Positions 49,486-64,000 of a stretch of DNA of 64,000 nt are shown piece by piece. Origin of the DNA: Frankia alni ACN14a (GTDB lineage Bacteria > Actinomycetota > Actinomycetes > Frankiales > Frankiaceae); contig NC_008278.1 of NCBI RefSeq assembly GCF_000058485.1, positions 2,846,962 through 2,910,961 on the forward strand, given 5' to 3'. Below the pieces are notes generated by a model. It was not told the DNA's origin, ran no database searches, and worked only from the letters and a program-made list of their open reading frames with translations. Position 1 is the first letter of the stretch; the number at the start of each line of letters is the position of its first letter. The translations under genes and the position numbers were made by a program.

Positions 49486-52400
49486 CGGTCGGCTCCCAGC
49501 AGCTCGATCGTCGTGCCCGTCAGGTCGATGGTGTTGCGCCGCCCGTTGGGCTCGATGACGATTACCTTTTGTGCGCGTTCCAACGTTAAGCGCGACCGGA
49601 ACAGCCCGAGTTCCTCCAGTAGCGGCGTCACCTCGGGGTTGGTGGGTAGGTAGCCCGTGGCGGCCCGCATGAGCAGTTCGAACAGGTCGACGTCAACGGT
49701 CATCGCCGCCTGGCCTTTGCTGTGGCGGAGAGTAAAGACGTCGGCGGCGGCCTCGACGTAGCTGTCGTCCGGCTGCTCTGCCTCGATCCGGAACTCTTCC
49801 GCAGGGAGGATCTTGACGACGGCACCCCCGTCATCCGTCGGCTCGCCGACCGACACCGCTACCCCCAGGTCGTTGTAGCCGACCGGGCCGATGCAGCGGG
49901 ACAGCCCGCGTAGCAGCGGCTCAAGGAACTCGTCGCTCGGACTGCCCGCGAGAATCGCGGTGAACGCGTCCAGATGGCGGTAGGGCCCAAGGTGGCCGAC
50001 TGCGGCCAGTTCCTCGTCCGCGGCGGTGAAGTAGTAACGGCGCTTCGCGCGGATGACCTCGTCGGCCGTGCGCGCCTTCGGAGCGAGCAGGCGCTCCGCC
50101 CTGGGCGCGGAAACGGCGCCAGGGTCGAGCATCCGCCACTCGTCGAGCAGGCGGTCGCGGCCGCCCAAGGCGTTGAAGGCCGCGGCGCTGAAATGCCGAT
50201 CCAGCGCCGATAGGCCGAGCAACCCATCCCGGAACTCCCGGTGGATGTCCAAGCAGCCGAGGTCGACGGTCACCAGGTAGGCCAGCGCCGAGCGCAGGTC
50301 CCGGATCGTTGGCCGGCGGCCGCGCCGCAGGTGCGAGGTGAGGACCAGCCGGTGCAGACGGTCCTGGGCCTGGGGCTCGCGCAGGTCGGAGGCGTTACGG
50401 ACAATCGGGCAACGAGGCTCGGCGAGACAGCCGGAGCAGGCGGACCACAGGTCGTCGGTGACCAGCGCGTCGAGCATCCGGACGGTCAGCGAGTCGGCTG
50501 CCGCCTCGGTGGACGCCATCGATCGCTTCTTCAGATCGACCCGGTCGATTCCGGTCTCTTCGGCCGTGGAGTCGTCGCCGTCAGTCTGGGTGAGCTTGTC
50601 GGCGATCTCGGGGTAACGGCCCGCCTCCCGTTCGAGGAAGTCGAGTAGCCGCCCGTCGTTCGCCGCGATCAGCGCCGTGTAGTGCGTGGCACGGGCCGGG
50701 TCGGTCAGCGGCTCGAGTGCCCTGCGGAGCAGGTCGTCCGCGGACATGTCCTCGTGCGACTCACTGGCGTCGTAGACGGACGCGAACTCGTGGCCGTCGA
50801 GTTCGAGCCGCCACCCGGACGCGTCGCGAGCGAGCACGGTCGCAGCACGCTCGAGCAGCGTGGCGCTCAGGCGTTCCAGGAAGGCGGTCTTGCCGTCACC
50901 CGGGTTGCCGCTGAAGACGACGAGCCTCGGCCGCCCGTCCACGATCCGCGGGACGAGGCGCTCGTCGAGTCTGGTCTCGACGTAGGTCTGGTTGGCGAAC
51001 GGGGAGTCAAGGCCGCGGTTACCGCTGTTTCCGAGCCGGCTGTTGCGGAACAGCTGGCGAATGTCGTCCACGTTCGGGTTGACGAGCCAGGTCCGTTCGG
51101 GGGCTGTCTCGGTCTCCTGCCTGCTCTCCTCGAGGATCTTCGCGTCGTCCGGATGGATGGAGGACGGCTGTGCCTCCTGCGCGAGGCTGTGGGTGAGAGC
51201 GTTTCGGAAGGCCGAGGCCGATGCGAACCGACGGTCGGGATTCGGGTCGGAGCCGTGGAGCAGGACCTCGAGCAGCGTTGCCCCGCCGGTCGCCGAGACC
51301 TCCTCGTCCGTCGGCCGGACGAGGTTGGCCTTGTTCTGGTAGCGGCCGTTGTCCTCATAGGGGTAGCGACCGGTCAGCGCCTCGAAACACACGACGGCCA
51401 GGGAGTAGAGGTCCGCCGCGTCCGACCACGAACGGCCGGCAGCGATCTCCGGTGCCTGGTAGGGCAGGGTCCCGACGATGCTGTGGTCGGCGCCGTCGGA
51501 GGCCACGCCGAAGTCGATCAGAGTCGCCCGATCGTCCGCGTCCACGATGATGTTGTTGGGCGACACGTCGCGGTGCAGGACTTTGCGCTGGTGGGCGTAC
51601 TCGAGGGCGTCGAGCATGTCGTGCAGGATCTTCAGGCAGGCCGCCGGGTTGCCCCGCAGCGTCGGGGCCAGCTTCTTGACCGTCTGGCCCTCGACGTACT
51701 CGGCGATGAGCGCGGGGCCGAACGGCTCCCACAGATAGTCCGTGGCCCGCACGATCCGGTCGTGTTTGAGTTTGTTCAGGTGCTTCAGCTCAGTACGTAG
51801 CCGGTCCTGCATCCCCATCGAATGCATGATCTTGAGGGTGTGGCGGATGTCCATCCGACGGTCGATCATCAGCCAGGTCATGGCGGTCGCGCCGGACCCC
51901 AGCTCCTCGAGGAGTTCGTACTTGTCGACCTTCGCTCCCCGCACGGGACGCGCCGAGCGCTTGCGCTCCTCACGCAGATAGCCGGCGAGCATTTCGGCGG
52001 CCTCGCGGGCGTCCGGTCGGTCGTTCGGGCTCACCGCCATGCAGGCTGCCAGCACGTTGCGAACGCGGTCCGGCAATGTCGTCGGAACCAGTGGTTCTCC
52101 CTGCGGGTCGGCCTTGTCCAGCTTGAGCCAGGCCAGGAGGCACACGGCCAAGGAGTAGACGTCCGACCGGTAGGTCGCCGCGTGGCCCGAGGCGCGGCAC
52201 TCGGGCGCGCGGAAGGGGCGGCCAAGGTCGTCGATATCGTCCACATCGGTGATCGTGGCATCCGCGTTGGTGAACTTCGCCAGCAGGAAGTCGGAGAAGG
52301 TCACCTTGTCCGACGTCTCGGGCACCCAGATCCGGCTCGGATGCAGCGCGCGGTGCACGATCTCCGCGGCGTGGATGTCCGCCAGACCCGCGTAGGCGCA

Positions 52401-53342
52401 CGCCGCCACCTCGGCAAAGGTCGCGGTCGATGGCCTGTCCCCAGCCACGATCCGTTGCCGCAACATGCTGAGGTCAGCCGGGGGCAGGTACATCGGCGCA
52501 ACCCACAACTGGTCGTCGTTCTCGCTGAAGTAGGGCTCGACCTGGAAGACCACGCCGGTCGGGGCGAGCTTCCGCATCGCGTCGTACTCGCGCAGGACCT
52601 CCTTGTCGCTGGCTGCGAGCTCCTTCTCCGACAGCCCCTTGCGGACGTAGGTCAACAGGATCCGTGCGCTGCCATCGGGGTGCACGGCCACGTACCGCGG
52701 GCCGCGGGGTGTCGCGTCGAGCTCATCGATGATCGAGTAGCTGCCGAGCCGGGCTGGGCGGGCTGGGCGGTCTGGCAGCCCCTTGACCAGTGTCAGGATC
52801 TGCGCTCGGTACGGGCCGAGGTCGAACTGCTTCTTCATCGCCTGGTCGATGTCGAGCAGCTTCCGCTCGCAGCCGACCAGGCGGGCCACCTGGTCAGGGA
52901 CGCGCGAGTCGGCGATGTCGAAGCTGACGTCCGACGAGGACAACACCACGAGATGGCGGACAAGGTGAACATCAGGGCGCTTGGGCACCACCCGGTCGAG
53001 CCGGGTGCGCAGTATGCGGGCAACACTGTTGACCTGGCTAATCGGGCTACCCAGCGCCTTGTGGGACTTGCGGTCGTACCAGAGTTCCTCGGTGCCTACG
53101 AGCTCGCCGTGCCAGGACTTCTCCTCGATGATGGTGACGCTGTTCGGGCCGACAGCGATGAAGTCCGAGTCGCGGGTCTTCGTGCCGCTGACGATCTGAC
53201 GACCGCAGACAACCGTCCAGTCGTCGGGGAGGTGATCGCGAAGATAGACCGCGGTGGCCTCCTCGCCTGGACCGCCCCATGCACCGTGACGAACGATCTC
53301 TGCCACCATTGCCCCCGTCTTCTCGCCATCCTCGGCCGTCAC
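49482..53342 (-). CDS. NERD-pseudokinase-Ser/Thr kinase-P-loop ATPase fusion (MAD6-like)
   Basis: The 1286-residue protein is first in the operon. Residues about 20-190 are a NERD nuclease-like domain with Asp60 (TRDSDFIAVGPNSV) and the E-x-K of IIEEKSWHGEL (Glu73, Lys75). About 198-460 is a kinase fold without HRD or DFG (HRALHPSRIWV, FSDFLLAKF), hence a pseudokinase. About 473-720 is a complete kinase: ELGSGATAMTW, Lys504, HRDVSPNNIIV at 590-600, DFG at 610-612 and APE at 630-632. From 785 a P-loop ATPase follows (VVFSGNPGDGKTAFLERL) with a cysteine cluster near 969-978 (ACSGCLAEPRCPIV). The kinase probably gates the effector on infection, as for PglW and MAD6. An internal ATG (MVAEIVRHGAWGG) is an alternative start. 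Confidence 0.8.
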   Translation of the reverse strand: MTAEDGEKTGAMVAEIVRHGAWGGPGEEATAVYLRDHLPDDWTVVCGRQIVSGTKTRDSDFIAVGPNSVTIIEEKSWHGELVGTEELWYDRKSHKALGSPISQVNSVARILRTRLDRVVPKRPDVHLVRHLVVLSSSDVSFDIADSRVPDQVARLVGCERKLLDIDQAMKKQFDLGPYRAQILTLVKGLPDRPARPARLGSYSIIDELDATPRGPRYVAVHPDGSARILLTYVRKGLSEKELAASDKEVLREYDAMRKLAPTGVVFQVEPYFSENDDQLWVAPMYLPPADLSMLRQRIVAGDRPSTATFAEVAACAYAGLADIHAAEIVHRALHPSRIWVPETSDKVTFSDFLLAKFTNADATITDVDDIDDLGRPFRAPECRASGHAATYRSDVYSLAVCLLAWLKLDKADPQGEPLVPTTLPDRVRNVLAACMAVSPNDRPDAREAAEMLAGYLREERKRSARPVRGAKVDKYELLEELGSGATAMTWLMIDRRMDIRHTLKIMHSMGMQDRLRTELKHLNKLKHDRIVRATDYLWEPFGPALIAEYVEGQTVKKLAPTLRGNPAACLKILHDMLDALEYAHQRKVLHRDVSPNNIIVDADDRATLIDFGVASDGADHSIVGTLPYQAPEIAAGRSWSDAADLYSLAVVCFEALTGRYPYEDNGRYQNKANLVRPTDEEVSATGGATLLEVLLHGSDPNPDRRFASASAFRNALTHSLAQEAQPSSIHPDDAKILEESRQETETAPERTWLVNPNVDDIRQLFRNSRLGNSGNRGLDSPFANQTYVETRLDERLVPRIVDGRPRLVVFSGNPGDGKTAFLERLSATLLERAATVLARDASGWRLELDGHEFASVYDASESHEDMSADDLLRRALEPLTDPARATHYTALIAANDGRLLDFLEREAGRYPEIADKLTQTDGDDSTAEETGIDRVDLKKRSMASTEAAADSLTVRMLDALVTDDLWSACSGCLAEPRCPIVRNASDLREPQAQDRLHRLVLTSHLRRGRRPTIRDLRSALAYLVTVDLGCLDIHREFRDGLLGLSALDRHFSAAAFNALGGRDRLLDEWRMLDPGAVSAPRAERLLAPKARTADEVIRAKRRYYFTAADEELAAVGHLGPYRHLDAFTAILAGSPSDEFLEPLLRGLSRCIGPVGYNDLGVAVSVGEPTDDGGAVVKILPAEEFRIEAEQPDDSYVEAAADVFTLRHSKGQAAMTVDVDLFELLMRAATGYLPTNPEVTPLLEELGLFRSRLTLERAQKVIVIEPNGRRNTIDLTGTTIELLGADR

Positions 53343-53718
53343 CGGTCTGCTCGAGGCTGGCGCAACCGTCTCGCCACATTTCTATCGCTTGTCGCATATC
53401 CCCGGCGCGGAGGGTGCGGCAGACATGCAGCTCTAGCGAAGTCCGACTTTCGGTGACCTTGAGTAGTTGAGTGAATACTTGGAGACCGGTTCGCTGGTTG
53501 GCGTAGATAATTGGGTGAATCTGACAGATCCGTTCCAGGCGGCTTCCTTGTCGGACTGGCGCCAGCGAGGGGCCGGCGCCGTCGGCGCCAGCAATACCCA
53601 CAGCCATAGGGCGTCGAGGTGCGGCTCATCCCTGCGGGTGGGGGCACACTGCCGGCCGTGCACGTGGGGGGCGATCTACCCTCGACCTCGCTGGGTAGAA
53701 GGTGTTTGAGATCGTCGG
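53343..53718. other. Upstream region of the kinase operon
   Basis: This 376-base gap must contain the promoter of the three-gene operon. No gene is convincing. There is no helix-turn-helix regulator, methyltransferase or other mad1-5-like gene here; the IS5 transposase remnant begins directly beyond, so upstream operon genes could have been lost by insertion. Confidence 0.4.
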
Positions 53719-54400
53719 TTAGATGATTCTCTGTAGCGGTCGGGGTCCTGACCATCGGGCGGGTGCGCGCCGGTCGATCCGCCGGGCCATGACGCCGATC
53801 ATCGCCCAGCGGATCAGGGCCTCGGCGTGGTCGGGGCGGCGTTCGTAGTCCCGGGCGTGACGACGGTGCGCGGTGATCCACGCCAGGGTCCGTTCGACGA
53901 CCCAGCGACGGGGCCAGAGCTTGAAGCCCTTCTGCCCCGCAGGCCGGCGCACGACCTGCACCCGTAGGCCAAGCGGGTGGGCGGCCCAGTCCACGATCGT
54001 CCCGGCGAACATCCCATCGCCGAACACCAGCTGTAACCGCCGGCCGGCGAAGTAACTGTCGAGAAGAACCTGCCGCCCACCGGCGGTGTCATGCGTACTC
54101 GCGGGAACGACCAGCACAGCCAGCAGCAGACCCAGGGTTTCAACGACGAGGAATCGCTTGTGGCCGTCGACTCTCTTGCCCATGTCGAAGCCGCAGCTGG
54201 CCGCCGGGACGGTGTCGGCGCCCTTCACCGACTGGGAGTCGATGATCCCCGCCGTCGGGTCGGTGTCACGTCCTTCCTGCACGCGGAGCTGGTCGCGTAA
54301 CGCGTCGTGGACACGTTCGGTCACGCCCTGGTCGTGCCAGCGGGCGAAGTAGTGTGGAGCGCCGCCATCCGGCGGCGCGTCTTCCGGCATTACAGCGTCC
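53719..54400 (-). pseudogene. IS5-family transposase, N-terminal third missing
   Basis: The frame carries the DDE core of an IS5-group transposase: AGIIDSQSVKGADTVPAASC (first Asp), LVFGDGMFAGTIVDWAAHPL (second Asp) and KLWPRRWVVERTLAWITAHR (Glu). It ends normally (RRIDRRAP then a short tail). N-terminal to HYFARWHDQGVTERVHDALR the expected helix-turn-helix region is absent; instead the frame reads into unrelated sequence (see 54396-54720). The ORF is open to 54486, but the element is probably inactive. Confidence 0.75.
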
Positions 54401-54720
54401 TTCCCTTCTCGAACCCACTGCCGCCCTTCCCCATGCACCGGGCTCTCCCCGGCTCGGAGTACTACGGCGGCTCCGTCCCACCCCACCGGTTCGACGGTCG
54501 GTGCGTCTATCCCGCCGGCCAGCTGGCTACCGGCCGGCCGGGAATCCGGACAGAGCGGTTCCCACGTTCACCATATTTCGTTTGTCGGAGGAGGAGGAGG
54601 AGGAGGAGCCCGACTGTGTCCCAGCGGCATCGCCACGGGTACGCCGCAGACTTTCCCCGTGGCCTCCGGCTCGGCGGTTTCAGACTTCCCTGAAGTTCCC
54701 TCACACCCGGGCGGGTGCTC
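54396..54720 (-). other. Non-coding segment resembling group II intron 5' sequence
   Basis: Joined to the truncated transposase is sequence that does not look like protein. On the minus strand it includes ggagccgccgtagtactccg, then gggagagcccggtgcatggg and gaagggcggcagtgggttcg. These strings resemble the region before the maturase gene in bacterial group II introns. No reverse transcriptase frame follows, so at most a 5' fragment remains. The assignment rests on recall of similar strings and is weak. Confidence 0.3.
54587..54607 (+). repeat. (GGA)7 microsatellite
   Basis: Seven perfect GGA triplets occur in the non-coding stretch between the IS5 and IS110 remnants. Nothing indicates a function; it is a slippage-prone tract. 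Confidence 0.8.
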
Positions 54721-55035
54721 GGTGCGCAGCGCGCCTGGCCCTTATCTACCAGATTTGAGCATTCCTGGCGGTGTGGCCGCCACCTGATCAAATGAGAATG
54801 TTGTGGGCTGCGGTGACCTGTTTGTCGGGTGCTGGGTCGCGGCTGGGATGATGGTGGGGCGTTGCCCGGTCGACGTCGGCTCTCTCTGGTGCGGACGAGC
54901 CCGTGTTTGAATATGGCGGCGGAGGCCTGGGGTACTTGTTCCTGCTGCCGTGAGCGCGTTCCTCGGTTTCCGTGTTCAGGCTTCCCCGGGCAACGCGCCC
55001 TGAAGAGTGTTTCCTGGTTGGGAAGGGAGGCAGAG

Positions 55036-56270
55036 GTGGAAGTGGTGTTCCCGCGCTGCGCGGGACTCGACGTCCATCGGGACACGGTGGCCGCGGCGAT
55101 ACGGATCCAGCCCGCGAAAGGACCCGCGAAAGTCGAGGTCCGAACGTGCACCACGACCGGCGGTCGCTGGGGCTCCTGGCGGACTGGCTGGCCCAGAACA
55201 AGGTCACGATCCCGGGGATGGAATCAACCGGGGTTTACTGGAAACCTGTCTTCCACATCTTGGAAGACCAGTTCGAGTGCTGGCTTCTCAACGCCGCGCA
55301 TGTGCGTAACGTACCAGGCCGGAAAACGGATGTGGCGGACGCGGCGTGGCTCGCGGACCTCGTCGCGCACGGCCTGGCTCGGTCGTCGTTCGTTTCCCCG
55401 AAGCCGTTCCGGGACCTGCGGGAGCTCACCCGGGCGCGGCGTACGGTCGTGGAGAAGAAGACCCGCGAGGTGCAGCGGCTGGAGTAGCTCATGCAGGACG
55501 CCGGGGTGAAGCTGACGTCGGTGGCCTCCCAGCTGCTGGGTGTGTCCGGCCGGGCGATCCTGGAGAAGATGATCGCCGGTGAACGGAACCCCGAGTACCT
55601 GGCCGAGCTGGCACGCGGCCAGCTGCGCGGGAAGATCCCCCAGCTGAGCGAGGCGTTGGCGGGGACGTTCCGCTCCGGCCATCACGGGTTCCTCGCCGCC
55701 CAGCTGTTGGAACGCATCGATCTGTGCGACGAGATCGAGGAGCTCGACCGTCGGATCGAGGTGATGATCGCCCCTTTTGTCGAGACGGTGGACCGGGTCC
55801 AGACGATCCCGGGGGTGGGTAGGGTCACCGCGATCGTGCTGCTCGCCGAGGTCGGGATCGACATGTCCCGGTTCCCGACCGCGGGGCATCTGGCGTCCTG
55901 GGCGGGGATCTGCCCGGGGAACCACACCGCGGGCGGGAAACGGCTGTCCGGTCGTACCCGCCACGGGAACAAGCGGTTACGTACCTCGTTGACCGAGGCG
56001 GCGTGGGCCGCGGCCCGGAGCAAGAACGCCTACCTGGCGTCGCACCACGCCCAGGTCCGGGGCCGCCGCGGGGTCCAGAAAGCGATCGGGACGACCCGCC
56101 ACGACATTCTCATCGCCTACTGGCACATCGTCGCAGGCAACACCGAGTATCGCGATCTCGGTGGTGACTGGCATGCCCGCCGGCGCCGGAACCCGGAGAA
56201 ACGAAAGAACACCCTCGTCGGCGAACTGGAGAAGCTCGGCTACACCGTCACCATCGAACCAGCGGCCTAA
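55036..56270 (+). pseudogene. IS110-family transposase with frameshift and in-frame TAG
   Basis: The natural start GTG at 55036 gives VEVVFPRCAGLDVHRDTVAA (first DEDD Asp), but near 55150 the frame shifts by one base; the following frame reads LLADWLAQNKVTIPGMESTG and VYWKPVFHILE. A TAG at 55485-55487 interrupts EVQRLE-stop-LMQDAG, where a lysine or similar codon is expected. From 55491 the C-terminal serine-type domain is intact (VDRVQTIPGVGRVTAIVLLA, FPTAGHLASWAGICPGNHTA, RHGNKRLRTSLTEAAWAAAR). Two lesions make it inactive. The 5' flank from 54721 to 55035 holds no gene I can identify. Confidence 0.85.
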
Positions 56271-56386
56271 ACCCACTAATCCTCTGAAAACACATCCGCC
56301 ACGCGTGGACCGACCGGCACTGGGTCCCCGTGCGATCCTGTATGCCCTGACCCAGCCTCTCCGAGGTCCGGTAATTCACTCCTCAG

Positions 56387-57681
56387 GTGGCTCGGGGTTT
56401 CACGGATGCAAAGTGGGAGGAGCGCCAGGCTCCTGGTAGTCGGCGTTCGATCGCACAGGGGCTTGGGATTGTCACGGATGCCCTTTTCGATGCTCCCGTA
56501 CCGGCGGAGTTCGCCGAGCTTGTCCGTGAGGCCCTGGCAGGCTGGTCGTTCAACACCGGCGCGCGCACGGTAACAGGTCGGGATGGGCGCAGCCGTGAGG
56601 CCACGCCGCCTGCCGGCTGGGCGGGGGTGCTGGACTGGATGGAGCGGCATAGCAGGCCGGTGACGGACCTGGCCGACCCAGAGGTCGCTCGCGCGGCTCT
56701 CGGGGCATTGTCCCGACGGATGGACGGCCGCCCGGCCGTGGGGAACACCATAGTCCGCCGTCGGCAGGTCTTCGAGATGGCGATCAAATATGCGATTGCT
56801 CGTGGTGACTTGGATGTCAATCCGCTCGTGGGTCTCGACTGGAGGCCGCCGCGTAAGCTTGTTGCGGTCGATCGGCGCGTCGTCATCAACGCCGACCAGG
56901 CACGCCGCCTGTTCGCGGCGGTCGCGGAGAATGCCCCGGATCTTGAGGCCTTCTACGCCACGATCTACCATGCCGCGCTTCGGCCCGGCGAACTCCAGGA
57001 ACTGCGTCTCGACCAGCTGACGCTGCCCGCATCCGGCTGGGGTGAGGCACTTGTGGACGCGAACAACCCTGAGATCTCGCCTCGCTGGTCCGATGCTCCG
57101 GAGGGACCGCGCCAGCCTCGCGAGCTCAAGCACCGGGCGAAGGGGGAGGTACGGCCGGTGCCGTTGAACCCGCCGCTGGTCGCGATCCTGCGCCGCCATA
57201 TCGACACGTTCGGGGTGACCGCCGATGGTCGACTGTTCCGGTCGGAAAGGACGGGCCGGTGAAGGCGATCCGGTACCTCGCGAGGTGGCGGCAGGCCCGC
57301 GAAATGGCCCTCACGCCAGCCGAGCAGGCATCGCCGCCGGCGCGACGGCCCTACGACCTGCGGCACGCCGCCGTGTCCGGCTGGCTGAACGCCGGCGTCC
57401 CCGTCACTCAGGTCGCGGAGTGGGCGGGCCACTCCGTGCGGGTGTGTCTGCTCGTCTACGCGAGGTGCATCTCCGGTGGGGACGAGGCCGCCCGGCGGCG
57501 GATCGACGCGGCCTTGGCCGCCGAGAGCGAGACGCCCGAGGTCTCGCTGGCTCCGGAGCCAGCGGATTCTCATCCGCGCCCTATCCGCAGACAGCCGGAA
57601 ACGACCGGACTGGACCGGACACCGCCGGACATCACCCTGGCAGAGCCCGAACCGACGACCGGACCCGAACTGGAGCTCTGA
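56387..57681 (+). pseudogene. Tyrosine recombinase (integrase) split by a frameshift
   Basis: The first frame (56387-57262) has an N-terminal core-binding domain (VGNTIVRRRQVFEMAIKYAI) and the first catalytic arginine in YHAALRPGELQELRLDQL. It ends DGRLFRSERTGR-stop. The second frame (57259-57681) carries the rest: YDLRHAAVSGWLNAGVPVTQ with His/Arg, VAEWAGHSVRVCLLVYARC with His and the nucleophilic Tyr. The join lies around ggaaaggacgggccggtgaa, a -1 shift between frames. This could be a mutation, a sequencing error, or slippage at ggaaagg. The gene ends nine bases before the right direct repeat, so it is the best candidate for the enzyme that placed the island. Confidence 0.85.
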
Positions 57682-57689
57682 CCAGCGTG

Positions 57690-57770
57690 AAGGCCCTCTG
57701 ATCAGCCTCGGGCGAGGTGGCGGCTGATCACTAGGCGCTGGATCTGGTTGGTTCCTTCGAAGATTTGCAT
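57690..57770 (-). repeat. Right direct repeat: acyl-CoA dehydrogenase 3' end (attR candidate)
   Basis: On the minus strand it encodes MQIFEGTNQIQRLVISRHLA then RG and a stop, followed by the same dozen bases as the left copy. It aligns with 41614-41694 without gaps. The dehydrogenase frame stops resembling the family directly beyond 57770. Confidence 0.8.
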
Positions 57771-57837
57771 AGTCTCCCACGGGGCGCTGCGGCATATGGA
57801 CCTTTCGGCTGGATCATGGCCATGACCTGCTGAGATC

Positions 57838-57877
57838 CTGACCCTGTCTGACTCCATCTGACCCTGTCTGACCCTGT
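57838..57877. repeat. Four 10-base tandem units, consensus ctgaccctgt
   Basis: Units begin at 57838, 57848 (ctgactccat, the divergent one), 57858 and 57868, and a partial fifth (ctgaactcgc) follows. The 10-base period is about one DNA turn, so a protein could bind all on one face. It lies in the 655-base gap 57682-58336, which otherwise holds the att repeat and the inverted repeat below but no gene. Confidence 0.7.
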
Positions 57878-57942
57878 CTGAACTCGCGATCACACCCAGA
57901 AAACGCCCAGAGCGTGGGTCGATCGCCCAACGGCACCCCGGC

Positions 57943-57969
57943 CAGATAGTGACTCTGGGTCACTATCTG
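57943..57969. repeat. Perfect inverted repeat, 11-base arms, 5-base loop
   Basis: Arms CAGATAGTGAC and GTCACTATCTG flank tctgg. No U-rich tract follows on either strand, so a simple terminator is unlikely. It is AT-richer than its surroundings. An operator or a recombination or replication site are the options; it sits 66 bases from the 10-base tandem units. Confidence 0.75.
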
Positions 57970-58336
57970 CCGGACGCTCACCACACCCACACGGGCCTTC
58001 ACTGCCAGTCCGCCTGCGACGCGAATGTGCCACGCCAAGAGCCGACATGGCGCTGGCAGGTGCTCCGTCGGCGTTACCAGCCGCCAGTTCGATGGCTGTT
58101 TCCGGCCGGTCCAGCGCACGGTGTGCCGGTCCGACAGATCGGCATACCGATCAGGCCATCCCATCTGCGCGAACCTTCACGCCCTCGGAGATCGCAGGTG
58201 CGATCGACATGTCCGCAGCCGTCCGGGACCCCGAGCCCGACAGCAGAGTGCGGTCGGGCATGATCGGGGAGGCGATTGTCCGGCACCGACGCGCGGGGCG
58301 GCGCCGTCCCACAGCCGCCACTGCTTGGAGGCAGCG

Positions 58337-58645
58337 ATGACCACTTACACGCCCCGAGAGTATTCGTATCTCACCCTGGAGCGTTTCGAGCAGGACGCCT
58401 ACCGCCTCGTGTGCCGCGTAGCCGGAGTCCCGGCTACCACGACCGGCTATGGGCTTCTCCACCTCACCGATGCCAGCGAAACTCGATGGACGGCCATCTC
58501 CGAGGATCTGATATACGTGGGCTTGTTGGCAGCGTTGCACCCGGTGGGACGGGCGGGACTGGAAATCCCAGCGAACAAATTCGCTCTTATCCGTCGCGGA
58601 TGGCCGGATGAGTGGGCAACCCCTCCTGCTCGCAGGAGCCGGTGA
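58337..58645 (+). CDS. Small protein of unknown function
   Basis: The 102-residue protein starts at the ATG at 58337 with GGAGG a few bases upstream, which is why the longer frame from 58025 is rejected. It begins MTTYTPREYSYLTLERFEQD and contains VCRVAGVPATTTGYGLLHLT and IPANKFALIRRGWPDEWATP. It is soluble and has no recognised domain. It is convergent with the peptidase gene at 58668 and may be phage-derived like its neighbours. Confidence 0.6.
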   Translation: MTTYTPREYSYLTLERFEQDAYRLVCRVAGVPATTTGYGLLHLTDASETRWTAISEDLIYVGLLAALHPVGRAGLEIPANKFALIRRGWPDEWATPPARRSR

Positions 58646-58667
58646 CGACCCTGCCGAGCTCGCCAGC

Positions 58668-59420
58668 TCACGTGCCGGCGAGCCGGGGTACGACAATGTC
58701 GCCCTGCTGGGCTAGCAGCCAGGCCATGTCCGTGCCGGCCAGGTATGCATATCCTCCCTGCCCCCAGCTCGCCCCCCAGGAGTTCGCGAGTCGGTACCGG
58801 TCGTGGGGGGCATCCCACGCGATGATGTCGTACTCATGGCCGCCGGCCAGGCCGCTGGACCGATCCACCGGGATCAACCCGTTGCGGTCCGGCTCGAACA
58901 TGGAATTCAGCCAGAGAGTGCCGGCGGCGACCGGCCCGGACTGCAACGCGGAGCGCAACGCCTGAGTATCGAAGGCATGGGTGTAGCGGCGCATCAGCCC
59001 GGCTGCTTGCAATGCCTTGGCGCCGCCCAGGCCGGTGCTGCCGGTGTCGGTGGGTGGGCAGTGGCCGTTGACGTCGTCCAGCCAGGTGGCCAGATGATAG
59101 AAGTCGACCGCCAGCTTCTCGTCGACCTGGCGGCTGCCGGCGCGCAGGATGCCGTACTTGTCGGCGGTGAGGGTGACGGTGGTGCGCCCGGTGTAGCCCG
59201 CGGCGTCCGTGCCGACGATCCCGGCGACCGCGTTTCCCACGCAGGACCCCAGCTGTCCCTGATCGAAGATCGGCACCCGGCGGGTCCATTCCACGCTGTG
59301 CAGCGCAGATTCGGGCAGCACCTGGTGGGAGTAGGCCAGGGAACGGGGATCGAGATGGAAGTGGCGGCCCAGTGGATACCGGCTGCCCGTCCAGTCCAGG
59401 ATCTTGATGTCGCCGACCAT
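58668..59420 (-). CDS. Papain-like cysteine peptidase
   Basis: The 250-residue protein shows the papain triad in order: Cys in FDQGQLGSCVGNAVAGIVGT, His in GLAGGHEYDIIAWDAP and Asn in LANSWGASWGQGGYAYL. There is no signal peptide (it starts MVGDIKILDWTGSRYPLGRH). It is the last gene of the minus-strand operon and begins three bases after the stop of the small membrane-protein gene. In a phage lysis context it may process virion or wall proteins; the substrate is unknown. Confidence 0.85.
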   Translation of the reverse strand: MVGDIKILDWTGSRYPLGRHFHLDPRSLAYSHQVLPESALHSVEWTRRVPIFDQGQLGSCVGNAVAGIVGTDAAGYTGRTTVTLTADKYGILRAGSRQVDEKLAVDFYHLATWLDDVNGHCPPTDTGSTGLGGAKALQAAGLMRRYTHAFDTQALRSALQSGPVAAGTLWLNSMFEPDRNGLIPVDRSSGLAGGHEYDIIAWDAPHDRYRLANSWGASWGQGGYAYLAGTDMAWLLAQQGDIVVPRLAGT

Positions 59421-59422
59421 GG

Positions 59423-59671
59423 TCAGATCTCCCGTCCGGACGGCGCGCTGCTGCGGGCCGGCGCGTGCAGGGCCGCGGCCTTCACCTGGCTGCGGGCATG
59501 GGAGTAGAAGGCGGTGGCGATTGCTGATGCGACCACCCCCAGGGCCTGAACCAGCCCGTCGAAGCGGTGGACGTCCCCGATGCCGGGGTCGACCAAGGCG
59601 ATGACGGCCAGCACCTGGGTGATCAGCATGCTGATCCCCTCCGAGGTCAGTAGACCCGGACGCACGTTCAT
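59423..59671 (-). CDS. Small membrane protein, holin-like
   Basis: The start is the ATG at 59671 with AGGAG upstream; the longer frame is only antisense to the amidase. The 82-residue protein has a hydrophobic stretch (EGISMLITQVLAVIALVDPG) and a second weak one (LVQALGVVASAIATAFYSHA), followed by a charged tail. Its size, position two bases after the amidase stop and membrane segments fit a phage holin. Confidence 0.65.
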   Translation of the reverse strand: MNVRPGLLTSEGISMLITQVLAVIALVDPGIGDVHRFDGLVQALGVVASAIATAFYSHARSQVKAAALHAPARSSAPSGREI

Positions 59672-59673
59672 GG

Positions 59674-60486
59674 TCACTCCTGGGTGAGTGGGTATGAGGT
59701 AGTGGCGGCGGTAGGGGGCGGCCAGTCCGGCGGCCGAGGCGGCAGCGGAACCCCGAAGTGGACGGCGATCGCCTCGACGCTGTCGATCAGCCAGCTCACC
59801 CCCGCCTCCAACCGGCCGGCCTTGCGGTAGGTGGCGTAGAGGGCCCCGCCGGGGGTGGCCTGCCGCAGGGGCTGCTGAGCCTGAAGGGCCGCGTCCTGCA
59901 TCTGGGTCCACAGCAAGCTGAGCGTCGCCGCGGCCGAGCCGGCGGCGATGTCCCGCTCCTGATCCGGGGTGATCTGCTCTGCGGGCATGGTGAGCTCCTG
60001 AACGATCTGCTGGGCGCGGGTGAGGATCGCCGGGCGCTGCGCGGCGCGGATCGGGCCCGGACAGGCGTGGTTGCCCCACGCCGCCCCGCCGGCGGAGTGC
60101 AGGATCAGTCCGGGCGCCCCCGGGGTGTCCGTGGCCTGCGCCGGCCATCCGTAGATGACCATCCCGGTGGCGTAGGCCACCGCCACGGTCTCCAGCTGCG
60201 CGGCGGTCAACGGCTGGTCGGACCATCCAGCGGTCTCGATGGAGGCATACAGCCGGTTGCCGGCCATCTGGGCCCAGGCTGGCTGGTCCAGGGAGACGTA
60301 CTGCTCACGCTCGCCGTTCATCCCGGCCCACAGGTGAGACGACGTGGTGCTGTCCGGATGGGAGAACGCCCCGTACAGGCTGCCGGCGGCCTGCGCGACG
60401 TGCAGCACCAGACCGATCGGCCGCATGGCCTGCTGGTAGTGGGCGTCCACCGGCCGCCAGGTGAAGGAGGGCACCAGAACGGTCAT
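59674..60486 (-). CDS. Peptidoglycan amidase (endolysin-type)
   Basis: The start is the ATG at 60486 (MTVLVPSFTWRPVDAHYQQA), overlapping the upstream stop by four bases. The 270-residue protein resembles N-acetylmuramoyl-L-alanine amidase 2: zinc ligands are probably the His of GLVLHVAQAAG and the His/Cys region of GNHACPGPIRAAQRPAIL, with the substrate region ASIETAGWSDQPLTAAQLET. The C-terminal 90 residues are a separate helical part. There is no signal peptide, so export would need a holin, as in phage endolysins. Confidence 0.8.
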   Translation of the reverse strand: MTVLVPSFTWRPVDAHYQQAMRPIGLVLHVAQAAGSLYGAFSHPDSTTSSHLWAGMNGEREQYVSLDQPAWAQMAGNRLYASIETAGWSDQPLTAAQLETVAVAYATGMVIYGWPAQATDTPGAPGLILHSAGGAAWGNHACPGPIRAAQRPAILTRAQQIVQELTMPAEQITPDQERDIAAGSAAATLSLLWTQMQDAALQAQQPLRQATPGGALYATYRKAGRLEAGVSWLIDSVEAIAVHFGVPLPPRPPDWPPPTAATTSYPLTQE

Positions 60487-60965
60487 CGCCGGTACCTCAC
60501 CGTGCAGTTCACCGGCTGCGGGATCGCCGCCAGATACGCCTGGTAGGCCGCGGTTTCCTGACGCAGGTAGGTGATCACCGGGCCCAGTCGGTCTGCGTAC
60601 GGCCCGCCGGCCATCTCCTCGGCCAAGCCGTGGGCGTCGTCGCGCAACTGCTGGTTCTTCGCGCGCAACGCGGCGTCGGAGGCCTGCCGGGCCTGGCATG
60701 CCTCGATCAACCCGGCCCGGACCCGGCGGAACTCGCTCTGGTTGCGGTGCTGGATCCCTCCGATGCTGGCCGCGGCTGCGGCCAGCAGCAGCACCGCGAC
60801 CAGCAGCACGGCGATGCGCCGCCGGGCCCGCTGGGTGGCGGCCGCGGTGGTGGCCTCCAGCCGGTCGATGCTGGTGGTGAGAGCGGCCATGTCGGTGGTG
60901 AGCTGGCGTACGGCGGTTGGCAGCCCGCCGGCCTCGCCGGCCACGTTGCGTCGGGATTCAGACAC
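60483..60965 (-). CDS. Coiled-coil membrane protein of the lysis operon
   Basis: The start is GTG 60965 after AGGAAGGGGG. The 160-residue protein has an N-terminal helix with heptad-like spacing (LTTDMAALTTSIDRLEATTA), one membrane segment (IAVLLVAVLLLAAAAASIGG) and an outer helical region (RAGLIEACQARQASDAALRA). This resembles spanin-like or tail-associated proteins of actinophages only in outline. It overlaps both neighbours. Confidence 0.65.
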   Translation of the reverse strand: MSESRRNVAGEAGGLPTAVRQLTTDMAALTTSIDRLEATTAAATQRARRRIAVLLVAVLLLAAAAASIGGIQHRNQSEFRRVRAGLIEACQARQASDAALRAKNQQLRDDAHGLAEEMAGGPYADRLGPVITYLRQETAAYQAYLAAIPQPVNCTVRYRR

Positions 60966-61128
60966 CGCCGCCCCCTTCCTGCGGGCTGTGGTGGGGATCA
61001 TGCGTCTGGTCCGCCAGAGCGGCCAGGCCAGTCAGGACGGCGGTCAACTCCCGGCAGATCCGCCGTGCCTCGGCCAGCACCTGCCGGGCATCGAGGACCT
61101 GGGCGCGCACTGCCGGGTTATCGGTCAT
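60958..61128 (-). CDS. Very small protein of the lysis operon
   Basis: The 56-residue frame starts at the ATG at 61128, inside the end of the preceding gene (ATGA), and ends overlapping the next start by eight bases. It reads MTDNPAVRAQVLDARQVLAE then a short helical stretch and ends in DQTHDPHHSPQEGGGG. The tight overlaps on both sides are the evidence that it is translated. No function is evident. Confidence 0.5.
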   Translation of the reverse strand: MTDNPAVRAQVLDARQVLAEARRICRELTAVLTGLAALADQTHDPHHSPQEGGGGV

Positions 61129-61427
61129 GGCCCGCCCTGCGCGCGCCGGGAGAGCACTTCCACGTACTCCTGGGCCAGATCCACCGACCGTGTCAGCGCC
61201 GGCATGACCTCGTCCCGCACGAACCTGGTCTCCTCCGCCAGCGCCGCCTCGACTGCGGCCCTGTCCTCCCGCAGCGCCGCGATCTGGGCGTCCCGTGCCT
61301 CGAGTTCCCGGGCGTGCACCGCTTTCATCTCCCGGTAGACCCGCACGCCCAGGGAGATCACCAGCACGAGGACCACGCCGAGGATGCCCTGGCTCAGCAG
61401 GGGGCCGAGCGGATCGGAACCGTCCAT
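61125..61427 (-). CDS. Small membrane protein with coiled coil, holin-like
   Basis: The 100-residue protein starts MDGSDPLGPLLSQGILGVVL. It has one N-terminal membrane segment (ILGVVLVLVISLGVRVY) followed by a long charged helix (LEARDAQIAALREDRAAVEA). This layout is common among phage holins of the one-segment class. It starts 61 bases after the stop of the GH26-like gene on the same strand. Confidence 0.65.
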   Translation of the reverse strand: MDGSDPLGPLLSQGILGVVLVLVISLGVRVYREMKAVHARELEARDAQIAALREDRAAVEAALAEETRFVRDEVMPALTRSVDLAQEYVEVLSRRAQGGP

Positions 61428-61488
61428 GGTCAGCCGCCCATTCCCCAGGGGCCGGGGACGCAGCGGACTCGGTCATCCCACCCTCCTC

Positions 61489-63345
61489 TCATGGGTGGTA
61501 GTGACTGAGATAGGCCGCGGAGGCCTGCGGATTGTTCGGTCCGCAGGACCGGTACAGCGTGGAGGCGACGTTGGTCTGCTCACAGTCGTCGAAATAGGCT
61601 TCATAGAGCAGAGTGCCTTTCGCGGACTGGAACAGATCCCACATGCGGTGGATGTAGAAGGGGTTGTCGCCTCCGGCGTTACCCTGGCCAACCGCGGTGG
61701 GATTGTGGTTGATCCCCCACTCGCCCACGGAGAACAGCTTGTGATGGTTCCTGGCGAACGTCAGGACCGAACAGATACCTTCCGAGGCGTTGCAGGAGGA
61801 ATTCCATGCGGCCTGATTCGGGGACGGGGGGTAGTGGTCGTAGTTGTCGGTGCCGATCACGTCCACGTAGGCGTCGCCCGGATAGCAGTTGAAGGCGCTT
61901 CCGCCGCACACCCCCGGCGGGGTACTGTGCCCGTTGATCGTCCAGTCGATCACCACCTGCGGGTCGGTGGCCCGGATCGCCGTTGAGATCTTCTGGAAGC
62001 AGCCGATGAACGGTCCAGCGTCGTTGTCGGGATGCCAGTACATATAGGTGCCGTTGAACTCCCAGCCCACCCTGACGATGGAGTTCGCGCGACCGTTGTT
62101 GACCAGCACCGTGCCGAACTGCCGCCAGTAGGAGTCATAGGCCCCGCTGGCGCAGGCCCCGATACTGGCCCCGACGTTCTGCGGGAACAGCGGCTGGCTG
62201 ATCGACATGCGGCCCGGCCAGCCGCCGACCGCGTTGAACATCCACGCGCTGTTGGTGACCCCGCCCCAGGAGGTCCGGTCGGTGTAGGCCAGGTCCAGGT
62301 CGACCGCGCGGCCCCGCCAGTTCCCGAACCCTTGGACCTGATCTCCGCCGTTGATCCCGGACAGCCACGGCAGCCCGGACAGCGGGCCGTTGCCCGCACC
62401 GCCACCGCCGGTCGGGGACACCGACGGGGACGCGGACGGGGTCGTGGTGGGGGCGACCCCGACGGAGTACACGTCGGCCTTGTCGAAGGTCAGCGTCGGC
62501 CCGCCGGTCGCCTGGGGGTTGTGCTGTCCCGTCAGGGTGATGATGGTGGTGTGGTTGCCGCTGGCCAGGACCGGTGAGGTCCACACCAGGTCCGGGGCCT
62601 GCCCTGCCGCGCGATACCAGTCGGCCGTGCCTTGGCCGGCCCCGTCGGTGGCGATGCTGTCGATGCCGCCCTGGGGTTCCTTGACGCCGTAGACCTTCAG
62701 CTGCACCCCGGCCCAGGTGATCGTCACCTTGTCCCCGGTGGCCGAGGCCCATCGGTAGGAGCTGTTCGCGGTGCTGGCCACGGCGGTGTTGCAGCCGGCG
62801 GCGCACTGATGCCAGTTCGCGGCCGGGGTGTAGGACACCGTGTTGGTGGTCGTCCCGATCGCGGTGTCCTCGATGGTGGTGGACAGCACCGGTGCCCCGG
62901 TCGGGGTCACGGTCGGCGCTGTCGAGGTCGGGGCCGGCCCCGGCCCCGGATTGCCTCCTGCGTAGGCGGTGTACCCGAAGGTGATCTGCCGGCTGGCCGC
63001 CGGCGCACCAGTCGAGGTCAGGAACTGCACGCGGAAGGCACTCGCGGTGACCTGGTCGACCGCGTGGATCAGTGGGGCGGTCGGTTCCACCACCACCGCT
63101 GCCGGCACCGGCAGCATCTGCAGCCCGACCGTGCAGTAGCCGGAGGGGTCGGTGGTGCAGGTGACCGTGTCGGCCTGCAACGCGACGGTGGCCGTGACCT
63201 GCCGCGGCTGCTGCGGCAGGGCGGTCCCTACCGTCACCCCCACCCCGGCTGCCACCAGCATCCCGACCGTGGCGAAGACCGCAGGCCGGCCGCCCCACCA
63301 GCGTCGGACCCTGCGCACCCGTGTCACCTTCCAGCCCCCGCTCAT
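61489..63345 (-). CDS. Membrane-anchored GH26-like glycoside hydrolase
   Basis: The 618-residue protein has an N-terminal signal anchor after a basic stretch (RVRRVRRWWGG then AVFATVGMLVAAGVGVTVGT). Residues about 50-300 are beta-rich and Thr/Pro-rich. The C-terminal 290 residues resemble family 26 hydrolases (mannanase-type): IVRVGWEFNGTYMYWHPDND with the putative acid/base Glu, VVIDWTINGHSTPPGVCG, and FSVGEWGINHNP with the putative nucleophile Glu. It overlaps the GH16 stop by four bases (ATGA). It would act outside the cell on a beta-glycan. Confidence 0.8.
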   Translation of the reverse strand: MSGGWKVTRVRRVRRWWGGRPAVFATVGMLVAAGVGVTVGTALPQQPRQVTATVALQADTVTCTTDPSGYCTVGLQMLPVPAAVVVEPTAPLIHAVDQVTASAFRVQFLTSTGAPAASRQITFGYTAYAGGNPGPGPAPTSTAPTVTPTGAPVLSTTIEDTAIGTTTNTVSYTPAANWHQCAAGCNTAVASTANSSYRWASATGDKVTITWAGVQLKVYGVKEPQGGIDSIATDGAGQGTADWYRAAGQAPDLVWTSPVLASGNHTTIITLTGQHNPQATGGPTLTFDKADVYSVGVAPTTTPSASPSVSPTGGGGAGNGPLSGLPWLSGINGGDQVQGFGNWRGRAVDLDLAYTDRTSWGGVTNSAWMFNAVGGWPGRMSISQPLFPQNVGASIGACASGAYDSYWRQFGTVLVNNGRANSIVRVGWEFNGTYMYWHPDNDAGPFIGCFQKISTAIRATDPQVVIDWTINGHSTPPGVCGGSAFNCYPGDAYVDVIGTDNYDHYPPSPNQAAWNSSCNASEGICSVLTFARNHHKLFSVGEWGINHNPTAVGQGNAGGDNPFYIHRMWDLFQSAKGTLLYEAYFDDCEQTNVASTLYRSCGPNNPQASAAYLSHYHP

Positions 63346-64000
63346 ACGCGCTGCCAGACACGCAAATAGTCAATGTCCATCGAGGCCGGAAACCGCGTGG
63401 TGCTATCAGGCCCGCCGTGCAGCGGCGGCCAGTTCCCACCGACACTCAAATTCGCGATCAGGTAGAACGGATAGGCTTTGAACGCCGCAGGATCGTGATA
63501 CCCGTTGCATTCCCCGGGATGATTCGCGGCATAGATCTCCGTGCAGATCGACAGCCGGGCTCGGTGGCCGTCGATGTACCAGGACAAATGGTCCGGTTCC
63601 CAGTCGAAGCCGTAGACATGAAAATTGGCCGCAGTATCGGGACCCGTGATGGTAGCCGTGGCAGTGTCTCCGGCCTGACCGCTGACCGCATCATGCTCGG
63701 TGAGGTGGACGGTGGTCGGATCGTTCCCAGCGATCTCGAACACATCCTCCTCGCCGGAATCCGGCCAGCCGCCGTACACACGCTGGTCCGGCAACATCCA
63801 CAGCGATGGCCAGAAACCGTTGCCGCTCGGGACGCGCACCCGCCCCTCGTAGTAGCCGTAGGTGAACTGGAACGGGTGATAGCCGGGATTGTTGGCCCCG
63901 AACACGTCCGGGCCCGTGGACACCATCCCCGAATAGATCTTCCCGCCGGATTGCGTGGCCGTCAGGTGCAGTTGTCCCCCGGAGACGGACACATTGTCGT
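63342..64000 (-). CDS. GH16 family glycoside hydrolase (partial)
   Basis: The frame continues beyond the right edge; the GTG at 63992 is internal (the frame reads DNVSVSGGQLHLTATQSGG). The visible 219 residues hold the GH16 core: GFWPSLWMLPDQRVYGGW, the catalytic E-x-D-x-x-E in DSGEEDVFEIAGND, DWEPDHLSWYIDGHRARLS and a terminal PASMDIDYLRVWQRV. GH16 enzymes cleave beta-1,3 or beta-1,3/1,4-glucans or galactans. It is coupled to the GH26-like gene. Confidence 0.9.
   Translation of the reverse strand, partial: DNVSVSGGQLHLTATQSGGKIYSGMVSTGPDVFGANNPGYHPFQFTYGYYEGRVRVPSGNGFWPSLWMLPDQRVYGGWPDSGEEDVFEIAGNDPTTVHLTEHDAVSGQAGDTATATITGPDTAANFHVYGFDWEPDHLSWYIDGHRARLSICTEIYAANHPGECNGYHDPAAFKAYPFYLIANLSVGGNWPPLHGGPDSTTRFPASMDIDYLRVWQRV

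Follow-up and report, generated by a model that had tools for sequence, protein, structure and literature searches.

The gene run described here lies at the right edge of a 64,000-base window of the Frankia alni ACN14a genome (positions 2846962-2910961 of the single 7,497,934-base contig NC_008278.1) and appears to belong to a prophage continuing past that edge; positions above 64000 are extended window coordinates, obtained by extending the window rightward. On the minus strand and in the order of transcription, the run comprises a 290-residue gene, a glycoside hydrolase family 16 (GH16) gene, a gene for a GH26-like enzyme, genes for proteins of 100, 56 and 172 residues, and genes for an amidase, a holin-like protein and a papain-like C1 cysteine peptidase [Table 1]. 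The eight joints from the 290-residue gene to the peptidase gene measure, in order, +1, -4, +61, -4, -44, -4, +2 and +2 bases (gaps positive, overlaps negative). The initial annotation, made from the sequence of the window, had reported four-base overlaps at several joints, and such overlaps were found at exactly three of the eight (GH16/GH26, 100-residue/56-residue and 172-residue/amidase), the other five being three gaps of 1-2 bases, one gap of 61 bases and one overlap of 44 bases; the latter, between the 56- and 172-residue genes, depends on the chosen start codon and shrinks with a later start. The same annotation had placed GH16, GH26-like, amidase and papain-like peptidase genes in one run, which Pfam and GH26 profile matches confirmed, together with a holin-like gene recognized by hydropathy and position only. 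Its two or three small membrane proteins come down to those of 100 and 172 residues, each with one hydrophobic segment, the 56-residue protein having none. The 172-residue protein had no convincing family in Pfam, PHROGs or NCBIfam, and the search of nine proteins of the locus against NCBIfam returned nothing useful.

Table 1 Features of the gene run and of its left flank (window coordinates, extended beyond 64000)
Feature	Position	Strand	Remarks
Tail-side gene, 290 residues	64576-65448	minus	phrog_16452 (function unknown); starts 576 bases past the window edge
GH16 enzyme, 410 residues	63342-64574	minus	Window edge cuts the gene at 64000; secretion segment, lectin-like domain, laminarinase-like GH16 domain
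GH26-like enzyme, 618 residues	61489-63345	minus	N-terminal hydrophobic segment, lectin-like domain (~54-130), linker, ancillary module (~146-300), GH26 domain (~318-616)
Lectin-like N-terminal domain of the GH26 protein	62941-63204	minus	Modelled stretch, residues 48-135
100-residue protein	61125-61427	minus	One N-terminal transmembrane-like segment by hydropathy; family matches weak or sub-threshold only (Pfam, PHROGs)
56-residue soluble protein	60958-61128	minus	No hydrophobic segment; four-base overlap with the preceding gene
172-residue protein	60483-61001	minus	One transmembrane-like segment and polar C-terminal part by hydropathy; start codon uncertain
N-acetylmuramoyl-L-alanine amidase (endolysin), 270 residues	59674-60486	minus	Start inside an ATGA overlap
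Holin-like protein, 82 residues	59423-59671	minus	Hydropathy: a single stretch passes the hydrophobicity threshold; another, weaker, seen by eye
Papain-like C1 cysteine peptidase, phage lysin-associated, 250 residues	58668-59420	minus	PF00112, phrog_16701
Broken tyrosine integrase, N-terminal part missing	56387-57681	plus	Frames 56387-57262 and 57259-57681; phrog_1 (integrase) matched at 221-370 and 380-460 of 611
Transposase-like open reading frames adjoining the broken integrase	54829-56270	plus	From the list of open reading frames

The lysis cassette is ordinary. The amidase matched Pfam Amidase_2 (4.3e-10; 39.6 bits, cut-off 26) and, when queried with a longer start, the endolysin family phrog_1493 (3.1e-14). 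The 82-residue protein had no match in NCBIfam nor, queried with 11 extra residues, in Pfam or PHROGs. The C1 peptidase scored 27.7 bits against PF00112 (cut-off 20.7) and E 2.1e-48 against phrog_16701, and carries Cys, His and Asn motifs whose role we presume from the peptidase family; it matched 49 phage records, with the names 'cysteine protease', 'peptidase' and 'putative lysin' among the 15 listed. An amidase endolysin, a holin-like protein and a phage peptidase thus stand in one run that adjoins co-directional structural genes, as in the lysis modules of actinophages.

These structural genes lie to the right of the window. No capsid or tail genes had been seen at first, which is correct within the window, but a tail gene starts 1,734 bases past its edge and is followed by tape measure and capsid genes. 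The tail gene is a 991-residue open reading frame on the minus strand (65734-68709; L009:7696-10671), the C-terminal part of which corresponds to tail protein phrog_1887 (E 1.8e-46), while its N-terminal part matched a kumamolisin pro-domain and, weakly, the subtilase family. Upstream of the lysis run and on the same strand were found a tape measure gene (phrog_167, E 4.4e-58), a fibre gene with a GDSL domain, and genes for a major tail protein (phrog_792, 1.1e-14), a major head protein (phrog_777, 5.1e-65) and a portal/protease-like protein (phrog_859, 9e-68); a portal gene (phrog_776, 4.1e-113) occupies 97580-100117 on the plus strand. An IMG/VR provirus of 42,859 bases (UViG_637000115_000001) covers the stretch, and the relatives listed for capsid and portal (20 of 516 and 12 of 848 records, respectively) include the large actinophages Gordonia GMA2 and Arthrobacter Racecar. 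Three of 97 genomes matched the capsid family, namely the genome under study, a class-level relative (G047) and, over a short stretch, G008; apart from this short match, a search of 12 other members of the genus did not reveal the family. The G008 contig concerned held no relative of our 29 prophage query proteins and, by eye, carries gas-vesicle genes. Together, these matches support the reading of the block as the putative tail end and lysis part of a prophage late operon. The initial proposal of a lysis module belonging to a prophage beyond the window has therefore stood, given the tail, tape measure, major capsid and portal genes to the right and the similar block of Gordonia phages.

As an observation in its own right, the 991-residue protein joins, in a single open reading frame, an S53 (kumamolisin-type) peptidase with its pro-domain to a siphovirus tail protein (DUF5047/phrog_1887). 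The presumed Glu/Asp, Asp and Ser motifs of the peptidase are present. Fifty-one phage records matched the fusion, the 30 listed covering the tail part only, and a pattern search of genome_contigs returned as sole relative a betaproteobacterial metagenome-assembled genome, matching the S53 part.

What sets the locus apart is the pair of glycanase genes that stands between the tail-side gene and the lysis genes. The GH16 enzyme matched PF00722 with 65.3 bits (cut-off 22), its nearest solved structures are endo-beta-1,3-glucanases and laminarinases, and the sequence EEDVFE at 275 fits ExDxxE, which we take to be the catalytic motif of GH16; a weak match to phrog_17064, of unknown function, was also obtained (8.5e-5). 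The GH26-like protein queried alone had no Pfam match and reached only E 0.0076 against the PDB as a single sequence. A profile built from this protein and seven relatives retrieved 37 sequences from the PDB (E <= 0.01), most of which bear the names endoglucanase H, mannanase or GH26; endoglucanase H was the best match (2.3e-10). Its motifs GWEFNG at 427 and GEWG at 541 are presumably the sites of the two GH26 catalytic glutamates. At the N-terminus of each enzyme is a hydrophobic segment that would serve for secretion or as an anchor.

Relatives of both enzymes populate the host family. GH26 relatives were found in 30 of 35 host-family genomes and in 42 of the 97 genomes overall, with up to 13 listed per genome, a count bounded by the number scored (13 in most genomes), and the GH26 domain of the phage protein is 44-55% identical to the seven relatives aligned. 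In the host family, seven places carry GH16 relatives, 49-57% identical; the genome under study contains a single further GH16 (6645933-6646337). None of 12 loci around GH16 or GH26 relatives held another of the 29 prophage proteins, lysis proteins included, one of these queries (the fibre piece 'fib2') being out of frame in the locus comparisons.

The two glycanases share an N-terminal domain that is 61% identical over 77 residues, though their catalytic domains belong to different families. Within HMMER's filters, neither N-terminal piece had a Pfam match at E <= 10. A profile of the domain detected it in five of 58 genomes, all from the host family: the genome under study (two copies), G016 (two copies), G017, G024 and G034. 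A broader sample of 296 genomes, in which only a small number of candidates was scored for each (18 in the rows shown), yielded three with the domain, again all from the host family, and a peptide-pattern search of genome_contigs and viral_contigs returned the provirus itself only. The domain was absent from the six GH26 relatives available in full, and its profile, run on the loci around relatives, recovered only the phage's own copies and locus L054.

On the chromosomes of three related genomes (G017, G024 and G034), a GH16 gene starts with this domain. Its product shares 28-30% identity with the phage GH16, and the conserved locus around it also encodes a GT2 glycosyltransferase of two domains, a second GH16 with a malectin domain (Pfam, on G017 only) and multi-membrane proteins recognized by eye; two of the latter, for which no family match was obtained (NCBIfam included), we read as flippase- and polymerase-like. 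In G016, of another genus of the host family, the domain heads an 872-residue protein with both GH16 and GH26 domains (Pfam GH26, 33 bits, cut-off 20.2), the gene of which overlaps by four bases a second GH16 gene, 55% identical to that of the phage. Neither phage structural genes nor lysis genes accompany the G016 pair. The only other prophage relative in the 52.7 kb examined of this 62.7-kb contig is an S53 peptidase about 10 kb from the pair, which shares 43% identity with the S53 portion of the tail fusion; we take it as a probable host gene, notwithstanding its closeness to the pair. Since a GH16-GH26 operon thus occurs free of phage genes in G016, it is the enzyme pair, and not the lysis cassette, that has a phage-free counterpart.

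Structure prediction with AlphaFold2 on the two phage copies gave a six-stranded beta fold with a mean predicted local distance difference test score (pLDDT) of 72.3. A search of viral models returned one match below 0.001, without a name, and the 50 matches listed comprised 12 tail or fibre proteins and three H-type lectin domains. By VIA-align, the model superposed on the Pam1 tailspike (Z 8.5, 73 residues aligned, root-mean-square deviation 2.5) and on discoidin II (Z 7.4, 81 residues aligned, root-mean-square deviation 3.4). At the sequence level, a PDB search with the domain gave no match. From the model, the domain is probably an H-type-lectin-like glycan-binding domain. Homology to the fibre tip of the phage itself was considered and found no support (hhalign probability 7.1%).

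Portal, capsid, tape measure and tail genes are all present as open frames, and the prophage nonetheless looks damaged because its integrase is broken and the nearest terminase lies 35 kb away. A complete ordinary prophage to the right, which would have reduced the locus to a standard lysis region, was thus encountered in part: the structural genes continue, but the integrase is interrupted and the terminase displaced. The open reading frames adjoining the integrase remnant are, by eye, what we take to be IS110-type transposases. No terminase was detected in the subset of open reading frames searched between 57 and 100 kb, and a PF20441 terminase search of the genome was empty. Searching the whole genome with phrog_2, presumably a terminase family, pointed to two places, the strong one at 135349-136752, some 35 kb from the prophage, with relatives annotated as terminase. 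Phage-like small genes and an integrase-like open reading frame (166565-167929) follow to its right up to about 168 kb, by eye. Comparing 53000-58700 with 96500-108000 gave a longest exact repeat of 15 bases, and no convincing attachment repeat. Because the portal gene (97580-100117, plus) and the capsid, tail and lysis genes (58668-90307, minus) lie on opposite strands and the terminase sits another 35 kb to the right, the prophage looks as if it had been rearranged or split; the block and the 135-168 kb region may be one large rearranged element or two separate ones.

Several neighbours of these regions were recorded. Genes for a lantibiotic dehydratase, a LanC-like protein and a PCMT methyltransferase (102426-107705, minus) adjoin the prophage end, with a second PCMT gene at 100320-102008. 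ARAGORN called a tRNA-Val (cac) at L011:1396-1471 on the minus strand, inside the portal gene on the opposite strand, which may be spurious. Beside the displaced terminase, QueD-like, ParB-like and related genes recognized by eye (136.9-139.4 kb) are possible phage DNA-modification genes. Left of the integrase, a three-gene defence-like operon (window 42578-53342, minus) encodes a 1752-residue DndH/HerA-like, a 550-residue mad7/SspG-like and a 1286-residue kinase-like (PD-T4-6/PglW) protein.

We consider it fairly probable, judging from gene content and order, that this is a prophage late operon into which host-derived secreted glycanases have been built, to be made late and to open the extracellular polysaccharide of the host at lysis. 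The phage would have gained a laminarinase-like GH16 and a GH26 of host origin between its tail-side and lysis genes. Both would be produced late, with the virion and lysis proteins, since a separate promoter would hardly fit into the 1-base gap and the 4-base overlap. Their N-terminal segments would carry them across the membrane, the lectin-like domain would hold each on a glycan surface, and, as the amidase, the C1 peptidase and the holin-like protein open the cell in the usual way, the glycanases would cut the extracellular polysaccharide so that progeny may leave the hyphae. That relatives sit in a glycosyltransferase locus suggests that the substrate may be a host glycan. The analysis shows directly the order of the genes, their domains and catalytic motifs, the relatives in the host family and, with moderate confidence, a lectin-like model; acquisition from the host family, export, timing, substrate and benefit to the phage are all things that we infer. 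More tentatively, and as a proposal that we would not back at even odds, the phage may have built the opening of the host coat into its lysis programme, two host glycanases with a domain used in a host-family polysaccharide locus being wired into the late operon, such that release would proceed through three layers: membrane (holin), wall (amidase and peptidase) and glycan coat (GH16 and GH26). If the glycanases do act on the host coat, the locus provides a direct test of how phages exit from filamentous, coat-covered actinobacteria, and points to the host polysaccharide that GH16 and GH26 cut.

A number of observations weigh against this interpretation. At this sensitivity, relatives of the two glycanases are all but missing from isolate phages: a search of 50,697 phage records gave a single metagenomic one for the GH16, at 30.6% identity, and none for the GH26. 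The GH26 may be held in the membrane by its N-terminal segment, which would then not be a cleaved signal, and a promoter inside the gene upstream of GH16 is possible. A search of 12 other members of the genus did not reveal the lectin-like domain, so the donor may have been another genus. As for the fold, the five models, built from two sequences, span pLDDT values of 44.5 to 72.3; the PDB structure search gave nothing at E 0.001, its best nine matches (E 0.006-0.095) being tailspikes and pyocin fibres, with snail H-type lectins next in rank; and most VIA-align Z scores are below 8, with the unrelated ZapD/DUF1342 reaching 6.2 in the same list. Finally, the prophage may be defective, in which case nothing would be released.

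Three other explanations were weighed. The glycanases might be lysogenic-conversion or auxiliary metabolic cargo through which the lysogen degrades external glucan or mannan of plant or soil origin, a role unrelated to lysis. The secretion segments of both enzymes and the wealth of such enzymes in host genomes fit this idea, as do the endomannanase activity documented for a soil-virus GH5 (passage in PMC6786970) and the functional soil viral chitosanase described in part of PMC9485262; the scant room for a promoter (one base to the tail-side gene, then a four-base overlap) and the location of both genes, co-directional with the tail-side genes before them and the lysis genes after them, make it unlikely all the same. 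Less likely again is that both enzymes are virion parts, tail depolymerases acting at entry with the shared domain as a tail-tip receptor domain. Many fold matches of the domain are phage tailspike or fibre tips, the glycanase genes adjoin tail genes, and other virion proteins of this prophage have hydrolase domains (the S53-tail fusion and the GDSL domain of the fibre). The hydrophobic segments at both N-termini argue to the contrary, as does the presence of the same domain at the head of chromosomal enzymes in loci without phage relatives; moreover, tail-tip domains are usually C-terminal.

The initial annotation had also raised the possibility of a domesticated, phage-free lysis cassette releasing wall- or polysaccharide-degrading enzymes. 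The broken integrase and displaced terminase do point to decay, and the enzymes are similar to those of the host, yet the adjoining portal, capsid, tape measure and tail genes persist as open frames, and on their account we rejected this candidate. None of the 12 loci around the glycanase relatives holds lysis proteins, and the sparse occurrence of the capsid family in the genus, described above, argues the same way. The presence of a similar lysis block after the tail genes of Gordonia phage Mareelih further deprives the proposal of support, and we regard it as very improbable.

As at the present locus, minor tail proteins in Mareelih (OP820470) are followed by lysis genes, in that phage lysin A protease, lysin A amidase, one small gene, a C1 cysteine protease and holin, and in Gordonia phage GMA2 (KR063281) a putative peptidase, three putative lysins and a putative holin come after hypothetical genes; several genes of these phages overlap by four bases, as ours do. 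The two phages differ in an additional peptidase lysin, which is C39 in Mareelih, and in a peptidase followed by a holin, where our order is holin-like protein then peptidase; only our locus has the GH16/GH26 insertion and, ahead of the amidase, two membrane proteins of one segment each. A literature search found no paper joining prophage, glycoside hydrolase, signal peptide, actinobacteria, endolysin and holin, and the passages of PMC3188489, PMC3218068 and PMC10023795 concerned contain no description of this locus. With regard to the shared domain, H-type lectins and tailspike tips (Helix agglutinins, discoidins, Pam1, phi297) resemble the predicted small beta-sandwich over 69-82 aligned residues (Z 5.6-8.5); ours differs in lacking sequence-level PDB or Pfam matches and in its N-terminal position before glycanases. 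The domain-bearing GH16 enzymes of the G017, G024 and G034 loci and of the G016 operon share with the phage enzyme the succession of N-terminal hydrophobic segment, domain, linker and GH16, but are chromosomal and without lysis genes. According to a passage of PMC2266912, Frankia 'putative glycosidases' with ManB/GH26 similarity are secreted and occur several per genome; our aligned GH26 relatives would correspond to these proteins, from which the phage copy differs in its prophage location and its lectin-like domain. Like the GH5 endomannanase of the soil virus (PMC6786970, in the part cited), ours are virus-encoded glycan hydrolases, here of other families (GH16 and GH26), with a lectin-like domain and a place between tail-side and lysis genes. 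In Chryseobacterium phage MA9V-1, a GH16 gene near the tail-sheath gene is 80.27% identical to a Chryseobacterium protein (PMC10537231), a host-like phage GH16 near tail genes as in the present case; it differs in coming from another phylum and in being a single GH16, with no GH26 in that table passage. Given this gene and the weak phrog_17064 match, GH16 genes in phages are in themselves no novelty. A GH16 and a GH26 with a common lectin-like domain in a putative late operon are, within the literature searched, a variant not met before of known virus-borne glycanases.

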